Shown: positions 20,645-30,168 of the stretch, in pieces
Layout of the letters: each line of letters begins with the position of its first letter
Numbering within the stretch: the stretch's first letter is position 1
NCBI RefSeq assembly: GCF_026000375.1
Contig: NZ_AP026708.1
Coordinates: forward strand, 3,260,001-3,324,000
Length of the DNA stretch: 64,000 bases
Direction: 5' to 3'
From: Pseudodesulfovibrio portus
GTDB taxonomy: Bacteria; Desulfobacterota; Desulfovibrionia; Desulfovibrionales; Desulfovibrionaceae
Translations under genes and position numbers: made by a program
Notes under the pieces: model-generated
Database searches by the model: none
What the model saw: the letters and a program-made list of their open reading frames with translations, nothing else
Told to the model about the DNA's origin: nothing

Positions 20645-23600
20645 ATGAGAAAGCAATACGGCGCATTGGTGGTCGGAGCGGGCATCGGAGGCATCCGGGC
20701 GGCGCTCGACCTGGCGGTCACGGGCCACAAGGTGGCGCTCATCGACCGTCGGCCCAGCCATGGCGGGATACTCGCCCAGCTCGACCACCAGTTCCCATCC
20801 GACCACTGCGGCATGTGCAAGATGTTGCCGCTTATGTCGCGGGACTCGTCCAGCCAGTTCTGCCTGCGCAAGGGATTGTTCCACGACAATATCGATATCT
20901 ACCTGTCCACCGAAGTGGGGGAGATGGAGGGCGAGCCCGGCAAGTACCTGGTCTCCCTGACGCGGAAGTCCACGCTCATCGACCCGCAAAAGTGCGTCAG
21001 TTGCGGCAGGTGTTCCGAGGTCTGCCCCGTGCGGGTGCCCAGCGAGTTCAACGCGGGCCTGACCGAGCGGCCCGCCGTGTACCTGCCCGTGCCCTACGCC
21101 ATCCCCAACCACTACGTGCTGGACCTGGACAACTGCATACGCTGCTGGAAGTGCCATGACGCGTGCCCCACCGGAGCCATCGACTTCAAGGTGGAGGAGC
21201 GCAAGGATTTCCACATCCTGGTCGCCGACCGCGATCCGGAACTGGCGGAATTCATGCAGGCCGAACTCGAGGAGCAGAACTTCCCGCTTCATTTTGCCCG
21301 GTCGGGCCAGGAGGCGGTGGACGCGCTGGCTTCGGAACAGAGTTTCGGCCTGCTCCTGCTGGGGATGAACCTGAACGACATGGACGCCGAGCGGCTGCTG
21401 ACCCGCAGCCGGGAATTGCGCCCCGACCTGCCCGTGGTGGTCATGGCCGATTCCGGCCACGAAGAGACCGCCGCCGACCTGGTCATGCAGGGCGCGCGGG
21501 AGTACCTGGTCAAGCCGTTCACGAGCAAGCGCTTCGTGCCCTGGCTGGACAAGCTCTACATGCGCATCCTGTCCGACTCCTCCGAGGAATTGGAAGTGGG
21601 GACCGTGGTCCTGGCGGGCGGATTCGACTGCTACACCCCGGCCATGGACCCGGAGGGCGGCAACGACATCTGGGCCTATGACCATCCCAACGTGCTGACC
21701 GCCGTGGAGTTCGAGCGGCTCATGTCAGGCACCGGCCCCACGGGCGGAAAGCTCCTGCGGCCCGGGGACGGCAAGCCCGTGAAGAAGATCGCCTGGATTC
21801 AGTGCGTGGGATCGCGCGACGTCCAGAAGAACGCGGACTTCTGTTCCGGCATCTGCTGCATGTTTTCCATCAAGGAGGCCCTGCTTGCCAAGCGGATGAC
21901 CGGGGGCGAGATGGACACCACCATTTACTACATGGACATGCGTACCTCCGGAAAGGGGTACCAGCGCTACCGCCGCAACGCCGAGAAGGAACAGGGCGTG
22001 CGGTTCGTGCGCAGTCGTCCGCACACCATCTTCCCGGCGGACGACGGCCAGAGCCTCCGGGTGGACTACCTGACCGATTCCGGGGAGCTGCTGTCCGAGA
22101 CCTACGACATGATCGTGCTGGCCGCCGGCGTGCGTCCGCCCAGGGACACCGACAAGTTCGCCCTGACCATGGGTGTCGACCTCAACCGGTGGGGCTTCCT
22201 GGAAACCCAGCCCTATGCGTCCGAAAAGACGAGCAAGGTCGGCGTGTTCGCTGCCGGAGCCTTCGGGGAACCTCGGGATATCTCCGAGTCGGTCATCCAG
22301 GCCGGGGCCGCGGCCCAGGCCGCCTCGCGCATCATCAAGGCCTACGACGTGCTGGCGGGCATCGAAACAGAGTCCGAGCCGGAGTACCCGGACGTGTCGC
22401 GCGACCCGGCCCGGACCCTGGTGGCGATCTGCGCCTCCTGTCCCACCCTGGAGCAGGCCGTGGATCTGGAAGTAGTGAGCGAGCGCATGGCCCGTGTCCA
22501 TTCCGTGTGCAAGGTCATGCCCGTGGGCAGCGCCTGCACCCCACAGGGATGGAAGGACATCGAGGAGGCCGCCCTGGAATACAAGCCCAACCGCATCCTC
22601 ATCGGGGCGTGCATGCCGTACGCCTATATTCCCCGGCTCAAGGAGCTGGGCAGGGCCATCGGCCTCAACCCCGCCCTCATGGACGTGGTGGATATCTACA
22701 CCTCCACCTTCGACTCGGCCTGCGGGGCCGGTGACGAGGCGTGCAGGGCCCGGGCGGAGAAGGAAGTCTATTCCACCCTGTCCACGGCCGTGGCCCGGCT
22801 GCAGGGCGCGGACCCGTCCGGTCCGGCGGTCACCGTGGACGTGGCCCGATCCGCCCTGGTCGTGGGCGGCGGCCTGGCCGGCATGACTGCCGCCATGGCC
22901 ATCGCGGACCAGGGGTACGGCGTGTGCCTGGTGGAGACCGAGGAGCAGTTGGGCGGCACGGCCATGCGGCTGCACACCCAGCTCGACGGCTCGGACCCGC
23001 GCAAGTACATGGAGGAGCTCATAGCCCAGGTGGAGAAGCATCCCAACATCAAGGCGTTCACCGATTCGAGGGTGGTCCTCTCGCGCGGCAGCGCGGGCCG
23101 GTTCCGGTCCGCCATCGCCAGTCCGCGCGGCGTGTTCCAGCTGGAGCACGGCGTGTCCATCCTGGCCACCGGCGGCCACGAGGCCAAGGTCTACGAGTCC
23201 GGCCTGTGCGTGCACAAGACCGTCATGACCCACCTCGCCCTGGAGGAGCAGCTCGCCACCGGCCAGCTGGACGCCGGGGCCATCAAGTCTGTGGCCATGA
23301 TCCAGTGCTGGCGCAACGAGGGCGAGGAGCGCACCTTCTGCAGCAAGGTCTGCTGTCCGGAGATGCTCAAGAACGTGCTCAACCTGAAGCAGCGCAATCC
23401 CGACCTGGCTATCTATGTCTTCTACCGCGACATCATGACCCAGGGATTCATGGAGACATATTACACCCAGGCCCGCAGGGCCGGGGCCATCTTCATACGG
23501 TACGACGACGAGACCGCGCCCAAGGTGACGTTCGAGGAGAACCACCAGCCCGTGATCGCCGGGTTTGATCCCATCCTCAACAGGAAGATCGAGATTCGAC

Positions 23601-24100
23601 CGGATATTCTCTCCCTGTCCAGCGGCATCGAGCCCAACGATGTGGAGGAATTGCTGGAGGTCTTCGACGTGACCGTGGATCAGGACGGCTTCTATCAGGA
23701 GGCCGACTTCAAGTGGCGTCCCGTCGATTTCCTCAAGCAGGGCGTATTCGCCTGCGGCATCGGCCTGGCTCCCCGGCGCATGGACGAGACCATCAGTTCG
23801 GCCAAGGCCTCCGCCCAGCGCGCCCTGCGCATCCTGAACGCCGAGAAGATCGCCCGCGAGACCGTTGTGGCCTCGGTGCGGCACTCCCTGTGTTCGCTCT
23901 GCCAGGCGTGCGTCGCGGCCTGCCCGTACGGCGCGCGGGTCCTGGACATGACCGAGGAAAAGATCGTGGTGGACGAAATCCTGTGCCAGGGCTGCGGGTC
24001 CTGCGCGGCGGTCTGTCCCAACAGCGCCACCGTGCTGACCGGATTCCACGACGGGCCCATGATGTCCGTCATCGACGCGGCATTGGAAGAACCGGCCTGA
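20645..24100 (+). CDS. Giant tandem HdrA with embedded receiver-like domain
   Basis: A 1151-residue protein built as two HdrA-like halves. Half one has an FAD fold (VVGAGIGGIRAA), DHCGMCKM near residue 57, two cluster motifs (CVSCGRCSEVCP near 118, CIRCWKCHDACP near 165), then a receiver-like domain at about 188-305, then the rest of the flavoprotein. Half two starts an FAD fold near 736 (VVGGGLAGMTAA) and ends in a 2[4Fe-4S] ferredoxin (CSLCQACVAACP near 1083, CQGCGSCAAVCP near 1114). The receiver lacks its phospho-acceptor: Gly240 stands in LLLLGMNLND where Asp is expected, though YLVKP keeps the Lys. Family length is usually about 650, so this is an HdrL-like fusion. Confidence 0.9.
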   Translation: MRKQYGALVVGAGIGGIRAALDLAVTGHKVALIDRRPSHGGILAQLDHQFPSDHCGMCKMLPLMSRDSSSQFCLRKGLFHDNIDIYLSTEVGEMEGEPGKYLVSLTRKSTLIDPQKCVSCGRCSEVCPVRVPSEFNAGLTERPAVYLPVPYAIPNHYVLDLDNCIRCWKCHDACPTGAIDFKVEERKDFHILVADRDPELAEFMQAELEEQNFPLHFARSGQEAVDALASEQSFGLLLLGMNLNDMDAERLLTRSRELRPDLPVVVMADSGHEETAADLVMQGAREYLVKPFTSKRFVPWLDKLYMRILSDSSEELEVGTVVLAGGFDCYTPAMDPEGGNDIWAYDHPNVLTAVEFERLMSGTGPTGGKLLRPGDGKPVKKIAWIQCVGSRDVQKNADFCSGICCMFSIKEALLAKRMTGGEMDTTIYYMDMRTSGKGYQRYRRNAEKEQGVRFVRSRPHTIFPADDGQSLRVDYLTDSGELLSETYDMIVLAAGVRPPRDTDKFALTMGVDLNRWGFLETQPYASEKTSKVGVFAAGAFGEPRDISESVIQAGAAAQAASRIIKAYDVLAGIETESEPEYPDVSRDPARTLVAICASCPTLEQAVDLEVVSERMARVHSVCKVMPVGSACTPQGWKDIEEAALEYKPNRILIGACMPYAYIPRLKELGRAIGLNPALMDVVDIYTSTFDSACGAGDEACRARAEKEVYSTLSTAVARLQGADPSGPAVTVDVARSALVVGGGLAGMTAAMAIADQGYGVCLVETEEQLGGTAMRLHTQLDGSDPRKYMEELIAQVEKHPNIKAFTDSRVVLSRGSAGRFRSAIASPRGVFQLEHGVSILATGGHEAKVYESGLCVHKTVMTHLALEEQLATGQLDAGAIKSVAMIQCWRNEGEERTFCSKVCCPEMLKNVLNLKQRNPDLAIYVFYRDIMTQGFMETYYTQARRAGAIFIRYDDETAPKVTFEENHQPVIAGFDPILNRKIEIRPDILSLSSGIEPNDVEELLEVFDVTVDQDGFYQEADFKWRPVDFLKQGVFACGIGLAPRRMDETISSAKASAQRALRILNAEKIARETVVASVRHSLCSLCQACVAACPYGARVLDMTEEKIVVDEILCQGCGSCAAVCPNSATVLTGFHDGPMMSVIDAALEEPA

Positions 24101-24141: not shown

Positions 24142-24708
24142 ATGAGCGAACCAGTCAGGAAGACATGGAGTCCGGCTTCGGAGGAATACCAGTCCATTCT
24201 GGGGGGGCTTCGGGAGTCCGTGGGGGCGTGCATGCAATGCGGCACCTGCACGGCGTCCTGTCCCAACTGGCATGCCATGGACGTGACCCCCAGGGCCATG
24301 TGGCGGATGATCCAGTTCGGCATGCTCGACGAGATTCTGGAGAGCCGGACATTCTGGATGTGCTCATCCTGCTACATGTGCACGCTGCGGTGTCCGCGCG
24401 GCCTCAAGCTGACCTCTGCCATGGCCGCCTTGAAGCGGTTGGCCAGGGTGGACGGCAGTGCCGCAGCCCGCAGGAACAGCGCTTTCTACGAGGCGTTCAT
24501 GGACGATGTCGAGGCCCACGGCCGGGTGCAGGAGACGAGCATGATGCAGCGCTATTTCCTCAAGCGGAAGAGCCCGACAGTGCCGCTCGCCTTCCTGCCG
24601 CTGGGCATGAAGATGCTGAGCAAGGGCAAGGTCCACCTCCCGTCCAGGGGGCAGGGGGGCGTGCTCAAGCCGTTGTTCGCCAAGGCGCGTGAAATGGAGG
24701 GGTTGTGA
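24142..24708 (+). CDS. hdrC: Heterodisulfide reductase subunit C-like ferredoxin
   Basis: A 188-residue soluble HdrC with two [4Fe-4S] motifs, CMQCGTCTASCPN near residue 30 and CSSCYMCTLRCPRG near 74. It passes electrons from HdrA to HdrB. Its stop overlaps the start of hdrB (TGATG), the usual hdrC-hdrB coupling. Confidence 0.93.
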   Translation: MSEPVRKTWSPASEEYQSILGGLRESVGACMQCGTCTASCPNWHAMDVTPRAMWRMIQFGMLDEILESRTFWMCSSCYMCTLRCPRGLKLTSAMAALKRLARVDGSAAARRNSAFYEAFMDDVEAHGRVQETSMMQRYFLKRKSPTVPLAFLPLGMKMLSKGKVHLPSRGQGGVLKPLFAKAREMEGL

Positions 24709-25628
24709 TGAAGTATGCATACTATCCCGGATGCTCCCTGACCGAGAGCGCCCGCGAGTTCGACATCTCCACCCGGGCGGTCATGGAACGGCTCGGCGCG
24801 GAGCTGACAGAGATTCCCGACTGGACCTGCTGCGGGGCCAGCGCGGCCGAGCCTGTGAGCGAGCTCATGAACTACGTGCTGCCCGCCCGCAACCTGGCCA
24901 TCGTGGAGCAGGAGATGGACGGTATCGACGTCCTGGCGCCGTGCGCGGCCTGTTACCTGAATCTTTACAAGGTCAACCGGGAGGTGGTGGGCGACCGGCA
25001 TCTCCACGCCCGGCTCAACGAGGTCCTGGCGGCTTCGGGGCTGACCTACGGCGGCAACGTCCGGGTCCGACATCTGATCGACGTCCTCAAGAACGACGTG
25101 GGCGCAAAGATCGTGGAGCAGAAGGTCACCGACTCACTCAAGGGCATGAAGATCGCGCCCTATTACGGATGCCAGATCCTGCGGCCCTATCCGGTCTTCG
25201 ACGATCCGGGCAAGCCCGTGTCCATGGAGCCGTTCATCACCGCAATGGGCGGTGAGGTGTTCCGGTGGTCCATGTCCAACCGGTGCTGCGGGGCGTCCCT
25301 GATGGTGGCCCACCCGGAAGTGGCCGTCAAATCCGTGGCCGCGATCCTGGCCGACGCCGAGGGCGCGGACGCCATCGTCACGGTCTGCCCGCTGTGCCAG
25401 ATGAACCTGGAGGCCTACCAGGACAAGGCGGTCAAGGCGGGCGGCAAGGCGGTGCCGGTGCTGTATCTGACCCAACTGATGGGATTGGCCCTGGGGCTGG
25501 ACCAGAAGGCCATGCAGCTGGACAAGAACCTGACCCTGACCCCGTCGGTCAGGCAGGACATAAAGACCCGGGCGTGGGCGGTTCCCGAGCCCGAAACCGA
25601 TGCAGAAACGGCAGGTATGAACGGATAA
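24708..25628 (+). CDS. hdrB: Heterodisulfide reductase subunit B-like CCG protein
   Basis: A 306-residue protein with two CCG domains. The first shows YYPGCSL, WTCCGAS and CAACYLN; the second YYGCQIL, NRCCGASLM and CPLCQMN, so both cysteine sets that bind the non-cubane [4Fe-4S] clusters of HdrB are complete. It is the disulfide-reducing subunit; the natural substrate in sulfate reducers is not settled. I preferred ATG 24708 with GGAGGGG upstream over GTG 24705. Confidence 0.93.
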   Translation: MKYAYYPGCSLTESAREFDISTRAVMERLGAELTEIPDWTCCGASAAEPVSELMNYVLPARNLAIVEQEMDGIDVLAPCAACYLNLYKVNREVVGDRHLHARLNEVLAASGLTYGGNVRVRHLIDVLKNDVGAKIVEQKVTDSLKGMKIAPYYGCQILRPYPVFDDPGKPVSMEPFITAMGGEVFRWSMSNRCCGASLMVAHPEVAVKSVAAILADAEGADAIVTVCPLCQMNLEAYQDKAVKAGGKAVPVLYLTQLMGLALGLDQKAMQLDKNLTLTPSVRQDIKTRAWAVPEPETDAETAGMNG

Positions 25629-25652: not shown

Positions 25653-26564
25653 ATGTTTAAGGACATCATTGTGGGTGTCACGCCCACCGGTATCGACGAG
25701 TGCGCGGTCAAGGCAGCGGCCGAGTTCGCCACCAAGTTCGAATCCAAGCTCTACCTGACCCACGTGGCGGGCATGGAGCAGGGCTGGGGCTCCATCGAGA
25801 CCCTGGAGCCGTCCGGCGAGACCGGCCAGCTTCAGGAACGGATGACCCAGATGTACGGCAAGTATCTCGAATCCATCCCGGACTCGCAGATCAAGGTGGT
25901 GGCCGGAATTCCGCATAACGAACTGTTGCGGCTGGCCCGGCAGAAGAACACGGACCTCATCGTCATGGGCCCGCACACCAAGGAATACGAGGAAAAGCGC
26001 GCCAAGATGTGGGGCATGGCGGGCTCCACCCTCGAGCGCGTAAGCCAGCGCGCCCGGTGCCCGGTCATGATCGTGTGCAAGGACGTGGACTGCAAGGAGC
26101 CGCTGTTCCAGAACATCATCGTGGCCACGGACTTCTCCGACCAGGCCGAGTGCGCGGTGGCCTATGGCGGCCAGATGGCCCGCCAGTACAAGGCCAACCT
26201 GGTTCTCATTCACGTCACCGAGCCCGGCGGTCCGGGCAAGAGCGAGTGCATGACCCGGCTGGAAAAGGCCTACGAAGGGCGGATGGACGGCATTCAGGGT
26301 CATTCCTACAAGGTCGAGGTCGGCGAGCCCGCCATGGAGATTCTGCGGCTTGCCCGGCAGCAGGATGCGGACCTGATCATAATGGCCCACCACTCCAAGG
26401 AAAGCGACCCGGACAAGGCGTTCCTCGGCTCCACCGTTACCCAGGTGGCGCTCAATGCGCCGTGTCCGACCATGAGCGTCAACCGCTTCTTCGATCTGCG
26501 GTGCGGCCTCATGTACGACCAGACCGGTCAGGTGGTCGAGGCGGAAGCCGAAGCAGCGGTCTAG
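25653..26564 (+). CDS. Tandem universal stress protein (UspA family)
   Basis: A 303-residue protein with two UspA domains (about 1-148 and 150-292). The nucleotide-loop pattern is partly kept in each: MGPHTKEYEE with GSTLERV in the first and MAHHSKES with FLGSTVTQV in the second. It sits inside the hdr gene set, 24 bases after hdrB, and may tie that complex to energy or stress state. No enzymatic activity is implied. Confidence 0.92.
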   Translation: MFKDIIVGVTPTGIDECAVKAAAEFATKFESKLYLTHVAGMEQGWGSIETLEPSGETGQLQERMTQMYGKYLESIPDSQIKVVAGIPHNELLRLARQKNTDLIVMGPHTKEYEEKRAKMWGMAGSTLERVSQRARCPVMIVCKDVDCKEPLFQNIIVATDFSDQAECAVAYGGQMARQYKANLVLIHVTEPGGPGKSECMTRLEKAYEGRMDGIQGHSYKVEVGEPAMEILRLARQQDADLIIMAHHSKESDPDKAFLGSTVTQVALNAPCPTMSVNRFFDLRCGLMYDQTGQVVEAEAEAAV

Positions 26565-26673: not shown

Positions 26674-27972
26674 ATGGGCGAAGCAGCGGAACTGCTGGTC
26701 GAACCGAAGCAGTCTGAATTAGTTGACAAGGTCAAGGGTTTGCTGCCGGAAGATGGCAACCTGAGCATGTGCCTGACCTGCGGCGCATGTTCCTCGGGGT
26801 GTCCGGCCACCGGCATGCACGGCATGGATCCGCGCAAGTTCCTCCGCTTGGCTCTTCTGGGGCAGGAGGAGGAAATCAGGTCCACGCCGTGGGTCTGGCT
26901 CTGCACCATGTGCAGACGGTGCGTGCACGCCTGCCCCATGGGGGTGGATATCCCGCAGCTGGTCTATTACACCCGGCAGTCCTGGCCGAGGGAGGAGCGC
27001 CCCAAGGGCATCCTGGGCTCCTGCGAGCAGGCTTTGAACACGTCGGGCAACAGCGCCATGGGCGCGTCCAGCGAGGACTTCAAGTTCGTCATCGAGGATG
27101 TGCTGGAAGAGGTGCGCGAGGAACAGCCGGGCATGGAAAACCTGCAGGCGCCCATCGACAAGAAGGGGGCATACTACTTCCTGAACCAGAACTCGCGCGA
27201 ACCCGTCACCGAGCCGGACGAGATGGTCCCCCTGTGGAAGATTCTCCATCTGGTCGGGGCGGACTGGACCTATTCCACCAAGGGGTGGGCCGCCGAGAAC
27301 TACTGCATGTTCCTGGCCGACGACGAGTCATGGGAAAAGGTGGTCCGGAACAAGGCCCAGGCTGTGGAGGACCTGGGATGCAAAGTCTGGCTCAACACCG
27401 AGTGAGGACACGAATTCTACGCAGTCCGGGCCGGACTGCAAAAGTTCAATGTTGAGCACAGTTTCGGGATGGAGTCCATCATCCGCCTGTATGCGAAGTG
27501 GATTCGCGAGGGCAAGCTGCCGGTCAATTCCGACTGGAACAAGGACCTGGGCGTGACCTTCACGGTCCAGGACCCCTGCCAACTGGTCCGCAAATCCCTG
27601 CATGACCCGGTGGCCGAGGACCTGCGGTTCGTGGTCAGGTCCGTGGTCGGCGAAGAGAACTTCATCGACATGTGGCCCAACAAGTCAAACAACTATTGTT
27701 GCGGCGGCGGCGGCGGATTCCTGCAATCGGGATTCGCCGAAGAGAGGAGGCAGTACGGCAGGATCAAGCTTGATCAGATTCTTCGGACCAAGGCTGATTA
27801 CTGTATCGCCCCGTGCCACAACTGCCATTCTCAGATCCATGATCTGAGCGAACATTACGAAGCCGGGTTCCCCGTGGTCCATCTGTGGACGCTCATCTGC
27901 CTCTCCCTGGGCATACTGGGGGAAAACGAGCGGGAATATCTCGGCGAGGACCTCAAGAACGTAGGGTTGTGA
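26674..27972 (+). CDS. HdrC-HdrB fusion (HdrD-like) with predicted selenocysteine at codon 244
   Basis: Read through the TGA at 27403-27405 this is a 432-residue protein. Residues 30-95 are an HdrC-type 2[4Fe-4S] part (CLTCGACSSGCP, CTMCRRCVHACP). The rest is an HdrB-like CCG part: NTE-Sec-GHEFYAVRAG, DPCQLVRK, NNYCCGGGGG near 342 and CIAPCHNCHSQ near 376. The two halves are in the same frame, with no shift, and the downstream part has no start or ribosome-binding site of its own. The paralogue just downstream has Cys at the aligned place (MPDCGGG). A hairpin fits a bacterial SECIS. Without selenocysteine insertion the product would stop at 243 residues and lose the catalytic domain. Confidence 0.85.
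27412..27447 (+). promoter_or_regulatory. Putative bacterial SECIS element
   Basis: Starting 6 bases after the TGA, a lower stem (GAATT with AGTTC) and an upper stem (GCAGTCC with GGACTGC, 27421-27439) enclose the loop GGGCC, about 23-27 bases from the TGA. Distance, size and a G at the start of the loop agree with bacterial SECIS rules that SelB reads. Confidence 0.7.
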
Positions 27973-28077: not shown

Positions 28078-28580
28078 CCGAACGCGCGTACATCGCGCCA
28101 AGGAGTGAGTCATGACGGTCATGCCCAAGCCCATGAACCCGGACGTCCGGGAATTCCTCGACAAGTTCGATTTCAGCGCCTGTATGTCCTGCGGGACCTG
28201 TTCCAACGGGTGCCCGGTCACCGGGACGCCCGGCATGGAGGGGTGGGACACGCGCACGGCCATGCGCATGCTTGCCTACGGCATGGTGGACGAGGTGGTG
28301 GATTCCAATTTCCCCTGGCTGTGCACCGGTTGCGGGCGGTGCGCCTACTCCTGCCCCATGGGCATCGACATCCCGGCGGTCATGGCGCACATGAAGTCCC
28401 TGCGCGACCGCGACAAGGTGCCGGGCACCCTGCATCAGGGCATGCAGAACAACGTGGATACCGGCAACAACCTGGCCATATCCAGGGAGGAATACCTGGA
28501 AGGCATGGCCGAGCTGGGGGTGGATATGGCAGAGGAGTGCCCCGGCTTCTATGTTCCGGTGGACAAGGCGAACGCCAGGA

Positions 28581-28588
28581 TATTGTTT
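28581..28588. repeat. Target-site duplication, left copy
   Basis: TATTGTTT immediately left of the IS, identical to the right copy at 29298. An 8-bp duplication is usual for IS1595-family elements. Confidence 0.95.
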
Positions 28589-29297
28589 GGGGCTGTACCA
28601 GATAACTCCGTTGGGGTATCGGTATGGCAATGCGAAAGAGCCGTTTAGGTCGCGAGAAGCAGCTCCGTTTGATTGAGCATTTTGTAGCCGGGACAACAGC
28701 ACGATGTGCCGCTGATCTGGTCGGCGTGAACTTCAAAACGGCTGCGTATTACTTTCACCGGATTCGTGAAATTATAGCCGAAGAAGAGGCCAACGAAGGA
28801 ATGGCTTTCGGCGAATTTGAAGTCGATGAAAGCTATTTCGGCGGCAGGCGAAAGGGCAAACGAGGTCGTGGGGCCGCAGGGAAAGTGCCCGTGTTCGGGA
28901 TCCTTAAAAGGGGCGGGAAGGTACACACACAGGTGATTCCCGACGCCAAAGGCAAAACGCTGATGCCGATTATCCAGGAGAAGATCCAGCCCGACAGCGT
29001 TGTTTACTCAGATTGCTGGTACGGCTACAATGTCCTCGATGTGTCCGAATTCAAGCACTTCAGGATCAACCACTCCAAGTTGTTCGCCGACAGCCAGAAT
29101 CACATCAATGGGATTGAGAACTTTTGGAACCAAGCCAAACGCCACATGAGAAAATTCAACGGCATTCCTACCAAGCATTTCCATCTCTTTTTGAAGGAAT
29201 GCGAGTGGCGCTTTAACAACAGCAATCCGCGAAGGCAACTTAAACAGTTGAAACAGTGGGTTAAGAAGCATATGGGCTAGTTATCTGGTACAGCCCC
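28589..29297 (+). mobile_element. Intact IS1595-family insertion sequence, 709 bp
   Basis: The ends are perfect 18-bp inverted repeats: GGGGCTGTACCAGATAAC at 28589-28606 and its complement at 29280-29297. One transposase gene fills the element and its stop codon overlaps the right repeat. Matching 8-bp target copies on both sides show a single clean insertion. Base composition is lower in G+C than the hdr genes around it, as expected for a recent arrival. Confidence 0.96.
28624..29280 (+). CDS. IS1595-family (ISXO2-like) transposase
   Basis: A 218-residue transposase. The ISXO2-type catalytic domain has the first Asp/Glu block DESYFGGRRKGKRGRG, the second Asp in VVYSDCWYGYN, and the third block HINGIENFWNQAKRHMRKFNG, where Asn/Glu replaces the classic third acidic residue. 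Its reading frame is complete, so the element may still move. Confidence 0.95.
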   Translation: MAMRKSRLGREKQLRLIEHFVAGTTARCAADLVGVNFKTAAYYFHRIREIIAEEEANEGMAFGEFEVDESYFGGRRKGKRGRGAAGKVPVFGILKRGGKVHTQVIPDAKGKTLMPIIQEKIQPDSVVYSDCWYGYNVLDVSEFKHFRINHSKLFADSQNHINGIENFWNQAKRHMRKFNGIPTKHFHLFLKECEWRFNNSNPRRQLKQLKQWVKKHMG

Positions 29298-29305
29298 TAT
29301 TGTTT
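29298..29305. repeat. Target-site duplication, right copy
   Basis: TATTGTTT directly right of the IS, matching 28581-28588. Confidence 0.95.
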
Positions 29306-30168
29306 TTCCCCAACTCCAAGGAAGTTTACGGCGATTTCGAAGACCAATTCTGGTGGTGGAGAATATTTTATGCCGCCCGTGAGGACTGGACCGTGCCGAG
29401 CGAGGGGTGGGAGGCCGTGGACTGGGCGTTGTTCACGGGCAACTACGCGGCCAACAGAAAACTGGCCAAGCGCAAGATCGACTTCATGCAGAAGTACAAC
29501 ATCGAGCGCATGATCATGCCGGACTGCGGCGGCGGGTCCTACGGCTGCCGCAAGGGGATGGAAACGTGTGTCGTCGAGGACCCCAACAACGAGGTGGGGT
29601 TCACCTATCTCTACGACTATCTTGTTCAGGTCATCCGCGAGGGGCGCATCAAGCTCGACAAGTCGGTCAACGCGGGCAAGCGGTTCACCTGGCACGACTC
29701 CTGTAAGCACGGTCGGGAACTGGCGCGCCATTTCGGCAAGGGGTATTACGACGAGCCCAGGTGGATCGTCCGGCAGTGCGTGGACGATTTCGCGGACATG
29801 ACGCCGAGCCGGGGACTCAATTACTGCTGCGGCGCGGGCGGCGGCATGTGGCCCATGCCCTTCGAGGACGAGTCCGCGCACCATGCCCGGCACAAGTACG
29901 AGCAGATCAAGCGCACCGGCGCGGACGTGGTGGTGGTCGGCTGTTCAAACTGCCGGGACCAGATCATGAAGCGTATCCCCAAGTATTACACTGACTACAA
30001 ATACGAGGTGAAGTACATCTGGCAACTGGTGGCCGAGACCCTGGTACTGGAGCCGTGGGAGGAGGAGATGGTCGCCCGCGCCAACGAGCTGGCCGACGCT
30101 CAGTGGAAGCAGTTCGGCGTGGACCTGGACGCCATGGAATACTGACCGGCCCAACGGCTGTGAAAAGT

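Follow-up and report, generated by a model that had tools for sequence, protein, structure and literature searches.

Genes at the Locus

The stretch of DNA analysed here (64,000 nucleotides; the window) belongs to the genome of Pseudodesulfovibrio portus, which is complete and consists of a single contig of 3.40 Mb. It carries an operon with the gene order iron-sulfur protein with FrhB/FdhB-C domain, double HdrA-like flavoprotein with receiver domain (HdrA-REC), HdrC, HdrB, Usp, HdrD-like protein with a predicted selenocysteine (Sec) and second HdrD-like protein (HdrD2) (Table 1). The receiver domain (Response_reg, E 1e-13) is inserted in the double HdrA at residues 191–297, after the ferredoxin stretch, and may regulate the complex by phosphorylation. 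HdrB of the operon matches HdrB chains in the PDB with E values down to 4.6e-39. Usp is unexpected in an operon for electron transfer. Of 104 non-redundant loci, 100 include at least 1 kb upstream of the Sec gene; HdrB followed by Usp is found directly 5′ of this gene in 19 loci, and 19 loci have an HdrA-like gene no more than 700 bp from it. Loci and genomes other than those of the window are designated below by our L and G numbers.

The second HdrD-like gene, a Cys-type paralogue of the Sec gene, has an IS1595-type element inserted in it, which is flanked by an 8-bp target duplication (TATTGTTT, at 28581–28588 and 29298–29305). Four copies of the element with 100% identity are present in the genome, which suggests that it was recently active. 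The original prediction had assigned the Cys of the motif MPDCGGG to the open reading frame that starts at 28112. The TGC codon exists (29525–29527) but, owing to the interruption, it is found in the 3′ piece of the gene.

Table 1. Features of the operon and of the Sec gene (positions in the window).
Feature	Position	Strand	Remarks
Double HdrA-like flavoprotein	20645–24100	+	1151 aa; NF040770 HdrA2 E 8.9e-190, below cut-off
HdrC-like protein, same operon	24142–24708	+	TIGR03290 E 7.5e-23, below cut-off
HdrB-like protein, two CCG motifs, same operon	24705–25628	+	Pfam CCG 68.5 bits, two stretches
Tandem Usp gene between HdrB and Sec gene	25653–26564	+	Pfam Usp E 4.4e-39, two stretches
HdrD-like gene, predicted to contain Sec	26674–27972	+	432 aa, Sec at residue 244; translation with TGA read through
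HdrC-like Cys ligands, two cubane [4Fe-4S]	26770–26934	+	C33, C36, C39, C43, C77, C80, C83, C87
UGA, predicted selenocysteine codon, residue 244, E-U-G-H motif	27403–27405	+	TGA column conserved in homologues
SECIS hairpin	27412–27447	+	Fold, pairing in homologues, synonymous constraint
Complete C-terminal CCG motif, predicted noncubane [4Fe-4S]	27577–27825	+	C302...C342-C343...C381-x-x-C384
Second HdrD-like gene (Cys-type paralogue), interrupted, 5′ piece	28112–28588	+	
IS1595-type element	28589–29297	+	Perfect 19-bp terminal inverted repeats; transposase 28624–29280
Second HdrD-like gene, 3′ piece	29300–30145	+	PDCGGG (Cys codon 29525–29527) and CCG motif

The In-Frame UGA Codon and Its Hairpin

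In a plain list of open reading frames the Sec gene is split into two (26674–27405 and 27469–27972). Translation from the ATG at 26674 confirmed what had been proposed from the sequence, namely a single internal TGA in a frame that continues without a shift to the final stop at 27970–27972; the codon is flanked by VWLNTE on one side and by GHEFYAV on the other. The frame said to continue for 189 codons past the TGA is indeed long and open, with 188 sense codons, the 189th being the final stop.

The stem-loop predicted after the TGA proved to be real when folded. The minimum-energy fold has an upper stem of eight pairs (27421–27428/27432–27439), which begins 15 nt 3′ of the UGA and is closed by a GGC loop (27429–27431), and a lower helix (27412–27416/27443–27447). 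Its energy has a z-score of −3.2 versus dinucleotide shuffles in both trials, in which none of 200 (51 nt) and three of 200 shuffles (48 nt) folded as well. A search of the whole window with Rfam at gathering scores gave no match. Across the 104 non-redundant homologues, 94.8% of the 832 cells of the eight-pair stem hold standard pairs, as compared to 7.5–42.2% in six slid controls. Changes on both sides of a pair are a weak measure here, with 14 cells versus 0–10 in the slid controls, and the case for the hairpin therefore rests on pairing and on codon choice. The stem Arg is encoded by CGG in 102 of 102 cases (22% elsewhere in the same genes), the Val just before it, at stem position +7, by GTC in 98 of 98 (33% elsewhere), and the stem Gly by GGA in 100 and by GGG in four (GGA 16% elsewhere), kinship being ignored in all three comparisons. 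In L030/L031 Val-Arg is replaced by Phe-Leu with the pairing retained.

In at least 54 of 98 genomes, that of the window included, an in-frame TGA is present in a homologue with 60% identity or more (counted by hand among the matches listed). Residue 244 is covered by 124 tblastn alignments with 60% identity or more (fetched loci, duplicates included), in which its codon is TGA in 119, TGC in four, and TGT in one, the TGC and TGT copies being four distinct genes. The TGA is thus not confined to one strain with a decaying frame, and the expected Cys/Sec variation at this column is found, Cys replacing the TGA in a few homologues. Removal of 13 identical coding sequences from the 119 left 106, and removal of two more that were over 97% alike left the 104 non-redundant homologues; gene identity to the Pseudodesulfovibrio records (L040–L042) is 87–89%. 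For estimates of selection 15 of the 104 rows with at least 82% identity were taken, the window gene being left out. For these relatives (83–94% identity) dN past the TGA is 0.022–0.087, and dN/dS, for the 13 with a computable dS, is 0.022–0.077; in the ten for which both sides could be computed dN/dS past the TGA is equal to or lower than that of the 100 codons before it. Purifying selection on the half of the gene past the TGA is strong.

In two loci a Cys copy and a Sec copy of the protein stand in tandem (L120, 2802–5412; L055, 2655–5290), possibly as a selenium-dependent isoenzyme pair. In one of the Cys copies, that of L120 (also represented as L035), a hairpin still folds at the place of the SECIS.

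Selenocysteine Machinery

The genome of the window contains the complete machinery, whose absence would have spoken against the prediction: tRNA-Sec (83.6 bits, cut-off 47), SelA (613 bits), SelB (400 bits) and SelD (339 bits), selD itself having one in-frame TGA. In ten chosen genomes tRNA-Sec was over the cut-off in eight and counted as clear in seven; matches of 47–50 bits (77–90 nt) are doubtful, the clear ones having 90–95 nt and at least 72 bits. Among these ten, no tRNA-Sec over the cut-off was found in G154, which has a Sec-DsrK-like gene, and in G144, which has a Sec-HmcF-like gene. In the well-assembled G042, which carries TGC at the codon for residue 244, no SelB over the cut-off was found and the best tRNA-Sec match is doubtful (47.9 bits). 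SelB over the cut-off was also not found in four TGA-bearing genomes, G029, G048, G056, and G092, with a completeness of 82, 95, 67, and 53%, respectively; we take these for assembly gaps. The tRNA-Sec of G048 is clear (84.7 bits).

Taken together, the machinery, the conserved SECIS and TGA column, the few replacements by Cys and the purifying selection 3′ of the TGA argue for selenocysteine insertion, and the UGA at 27403 is almost certainly decoded by SelB with Sec-tRNA under direction of the hairpin. That suppression leads instead to insertion of a different amino acid, Trp or Cys, without selenium is very improbable: no supporting evidence was found, the genome has the full Sec machinery, the SECIS is conserved, and in the 124 alignments the TGA is swapped for TGC or TGT, the codons of Cys, and never for TGG; this reading was rejected. 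Rejected, too, and hardly credible at all is an ordinary stop, which would make the gene truncated, split, a pseudogene or two proteins with re-initiation at the ATG at 27469, as the two frames of the plain list might suggest, since the TGA and the frame are kept in nearly all alignments and in several paralogous groups, dN/dS past the TGA is only 0.02–0.08, 21 codons of conserved sequence separate the TGA from that ATG, and the hairpin is constrained at synonymous sites. What appears in the list as two fragments is most probably one gene of a selenoprotein set widespread in sulfate reducers.

Domains, Iron-Sulfur Ligands and Predicted Fold

The protein is composed of an HdrC-like domain for two [4Fe-4S]-clusters and of two HdrB-like halves of the CCG type; Pfam finds Fer4_8 at residues 30–91 and CCG at 297–388. 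In an alignment of 55 sequences (alignment A1) the eight Cys for the two cubane clusters are invariant, and the complete C-terminal CCG motif, which is encoded 3′ of the TGA and is without Sec, is present in all 55. In a profile alignment its five Cys correspond to Cys637, 672, 673, 709, and 712 of EtfD. Between residues 88 and 301, no Cys or Sec is invariant except at residue 244, where 48 rows have TGA and seven have Cys. Judged by the canonical two CCG motifs of five Cys each, the C-terminal motif is thus complete and the N-terminal one incomplete, and since residue 244 is the sole invariant Cys/Sec of the N-terminal half, the usual five-Cys cluster cannot form there. The Sec had originally been predicted to be located in the CCG domain as a ligand of the cluster or as a catalytic residue. 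It does lie in a CCG half, although in the degenerate N-terminal one, while the complete motif follows downstream without Sec; as a ligand within a canonical five-Cys CCG cluster it finds no support and was rejected, because the other N-terminal ligand positions have no invariant Cys. Other Cys mark the subfamily, namely C117 and C211 (46 of 55) and C236 (40 of 55). C211 is present in the NTEUGH group, to which the window gene belongs, and in its Cys variants, and is absent from nine other aligned paralogues.

An AF2 model calculated from alignment A1 (pLDDT 90.2, pTM 0.89) is most similar to EtfD (9ojn; Z 26.7, rmsd 3.6, 377 aligned residues), followed by HdrB chains (Z 21–22; for example 5odc_B with Z 21.3 and 254 aligned residues), and Foldseek agrees. 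The HdrC-like part matches HdrC in the PDB with an E value of 4e-12. By model and matches, the predicted protein is shown to be an HdrC-like module with two [4Fe-4S]-clusters fused to an HdrB-like module, and conservation of the ligands together with the EtfD and HdrB structures indicates that it should hold one noncubane [4Fe-4S]-cluster, at the C-terminal CCG motif.

The profile alignment places residue 244 at Cys581 of EtfD, G245 at Pro582, H246 at His583, and E247 at Cys584. In EtfD, Cys581 and Cys584 take part in binding a linear [3Fe-4S]-cluster, and the noncubane [4Fe-4S]-cluster has His583 as its last ligand in addition to the five Cys named above (PMC13083937). By this alignment the Sec would be expected next to the noncubane cluster, with H246 in contact with it. 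It should be noted that HHalign of the family with three HdrB sequences, that of the operon included, aligned only the C-terminal half, so that for the equivalence of Sec244 with a Cys of the CxxC the basis is the profile alignment with EtfD together with the predicted topology. The paralogue group of the second HdrD gene keeps the Cys but has a G where the Sec protein has the His, which is therefore not universal.

Selenocysteine at the Same Column in Paralogues

Sec at the same column is also found in a group of paralogues with the motif PEUGHAY. The pattern occurs in 64 of 395 genomes drawn from the phylum, versus none, among the matches listed, for a reversed control, and 35 genes of this type were read individually. 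Proteins similar to HmcF and TmcB can likewise have Sec there (L126–L128, L182, L184, L186), and their relatives with Cys include L180, L183, L185, and L187; L198 has Sec at this column, too. Finally, there are four DsrK-like proteins (L192–L195) with Sec in the motif GEUGHAWRA, which score 524–536 bits with the NCBIfam model of DsrK (cut-off 400), a separate search giving 537.6 bits for L193. When 12 TGA paralogues (HmcF-like, DsrK-like, L198, and L200) were folded, a hairpin was found near the expected place (fold only). Because tRNA-Sec is not over the cut-off in G154, the Sec-DsrK-like reading rests on G116, G190, and G219.

The DsrK-like genes with an in-frame TGA in GE-U-GHAWR lie in L193/L204 (G116:C337), L194/L205, L192, and L195/L203. 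In L204 the gene stands beside one for a DsrM-like subunit (188.9 bits, below cut-off); its other neighbours, some of them named by eye, encode a small CxxCH protein, a Rieske protein, a cytochrome b with a cytochrome c domain, a fumarate reductase/succinate dehydrogenase flavoprotein, and fumarase. In L206 a Sec HmcF/TmcB-like gene adjoins that of a membrane anchor similar to TmcC/HmcE (196 bits, below cut-off).

A tree was calculated from 97 of 202 matched rows, namely 65 of 72 full-length proteins outside the query group, 28 TGA rows of the query group, chosen to be diverse, and four Cys rows; outside the query group proteins more than 93% alike were removed. This tree requires at least nine changes between Sec and Cys at the column (quick search, several long branches flagged). 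The Sec paralogues were sought on purpose and their share in the tree is thus no frequency. The group of the second HdrD gene (PDCGGG, with Cys) nests within the PEUGHAY Sec group (quick tree, some forks open), from which it follows that the second HdrD of the operon probably had a Sec-containing ancestor.

It is conceivable, if still somewhat doubtful, that the residue in E-C/U-G-H is the redox-active site across the whole superfamily of DsrK-, HmcF-, TmcB-, and HdrD-like proteins and that Sec was gained there several times, including in the DsrK-like subunit of a membrane complex of the DsrMK type (L192–L195) and in respiratory subunits similar to TmcB/HmcF. To our knowledge it is not settled by what mechanism a single noncubane cluster serves DsrK-type proteins in electron transfer among quinones, cytochromes, and disulfides or persulfides. 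The repeated exchange of Sec and Cys points to a residue that may do chemistry in these proteins, and if the proposal is true, the residue replaced by Sec in these variants is the catalytic one in DsrK-type reductases, which would then work at a single noncubane cluster as opposed to the two-cluster chemistry of HdrB.

Possible Role of Sec244

We read the exchange of Sec and Cys at one column as a sign of a redox-active thiol, and the recurrence of Sec at this column favours chemistry at the residue over a structural ligand. Electrons from the HdrA/HdrBC-type partners in the operon would pass via the two cubane clusters to the noncubane cluster. The N-terminal CCG half would have lost its own cluster and retained the Sec and, two residues on, the His; next to the cluster, the selenol would make and break a bond with a substrate of the disulfide, persulfide or thiol type or with a redox protein. 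Our guess is that this substrate is a redox thiol protein or a small disulfide. Provided that Sec is right, we give a bond-making selenol beside the noncubane cluster about an even chance. An HdrD-like selenoprotein with Sec and a selenol mechanism is, as a whole, the best explanation and a likely one.

The first of two other roles, in line with the cluster ligand of the original prediction, is that Sec244 is a selenolate ligand with an Fe–Se bond to the noncubane cluster, whose potential it tunes, comparable to the bridging, displaceable Cys81 and Cys234 of HdrB. Sec244 is at a CCG ligand position, that of EtfD Cys581, and is two residues away from the equivalent of a noncubane-cluster ligand, and the bridging Cys of HdrB is displaced when substrate binds (PMC13083937). 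The C-terminal motif, however, has all its five Cys in every sequence of the alignment, and the sixth ligand in EtfD is the aligned His, so that no coordination place is obviously vacant for Sec244; nor do the other N-terminal ligand positions have an invariant Cys. We therefore consider an Fe–Se bond unlikely, but less so than the second possibility, that Sec244 forms a selenenyl-sulfide with a Cys of the subfamily, the best candidate being C211, as a two-electron redox switch in communication with the cluster. C211 is conserved throughout the NTEUGH group, Cys variants included; in the model it is positioned just past the loop after strand 198–200, which by topology would be at the same sheet edge as Sec244. 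It is missing, however, from the aligned PEUGHAY and HmcF-like Sec proteins and thus does not explain in general why the column has Sec; we consider such a switch improbable. For the bond-making selenol as for the other two roles, selenium provides a spectroscopic handle (EXAFS, 77Se EPR) with which the role of the residue can be tested.

Comparison with Known Selenoproteins and Hdr-Like Proteins

The window gene is a member of a known selenoprotein family, Fe-S oxidoreductase (GlpC) with the motif UGH, and not of a new one; the family has been in print since 2006 (PMC1794560). There it comprises five proteins, one of them, in Table 3, from Desulfovibrio vulgaris; later 47 such selenoproteins in 31 organisms were reported (PMC5029168), and the motif UGH is given for the Fe-S oxidoreductase-like family in PMC13188914 (2026), where it is credited to that paper's reference 12. 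The family corresponds to PTHR43551 (PMC1794560, PMC5029168, PMC13188914). The term "Fe-S oxidoreductase" is absent from PMC1088965. Window gene and GlpC/UGH family share the motif, the kind of iron-sulfur protein and the phylum: the gene has an in-frame UGA in a conserved UGH motif with a SECIS directly downstream, and the genome has the machinery. The Pfam domains CCG and Fer4 would be compatible with PTHR43551/COG0247. In L116 a gene of the Sec-HdrD family directly follows those for an HdrA-like flavoprotein, which has U62, and for an FlpD/MvhD protein (Pfam FlpD, 160 bits), which has U16; this arrangement matches part of the operon described in PMC1794560. The operon of the window differs from the latter in that its HdrA partner is without Sec and in its gene order. 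Selenocysteine has also been reported in hdrD4 of Desulfobacterium autotrophicum HRM2 (PMC2702500), which by description is likewise of the HdrD type (HdrC plus HdrB, without membrane part).

The best family matches are HmcF, TmcB, and DsrK (NF045711, NF045724, and NF045796), which have the motif E-C-G-H and one complete CCG motif in common with the Sec protein. The scores (173.4, 158.8, and 130.3 bits) are below the respective cut-offs (750, 735, and 400 bits), so that the Sec protein is a relative and not a member; no NCBIfam model has a cut-off that it passes. In the CC-licensed PMC literature no paper was found that treats selenocysteine jointly with DsrK.

With HdrB and HdrD (PDB 5odc, 7bkb, 8rvu) the Sec protein shares the fold, but of their two CCG motifs only one is complete, the N-terminal ligands being gone except at the Sec position. 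The closest solved structure is that of EtfD from Mycobacterium smegmatis (9ojn), a membrane protein whose second cluster is a linear [3Fe-4S]-cluster (PMC13083937). The Sec protein lacks the other ligands of this linear cluster and has Sec in place of Cys581, whereas the His that binds the noncubane cluster in EtfD aligns with H246. New here, therefore, is not the family but that Sec is located in a degenerate N-terminal CCG half as the only invariant Cys/Sec position left there, that the His two residues past it aligns with a noncubane-cluster ligand of EtfD, and that the same column has Sec in some HmcF/TmcB-like and in four DsrK-like proteins. The Sec column, the adjacent His and the recurrence together suggest that Sec244 is not an ordinary ligand but a redox-active selenol close to the noncubane cluster.
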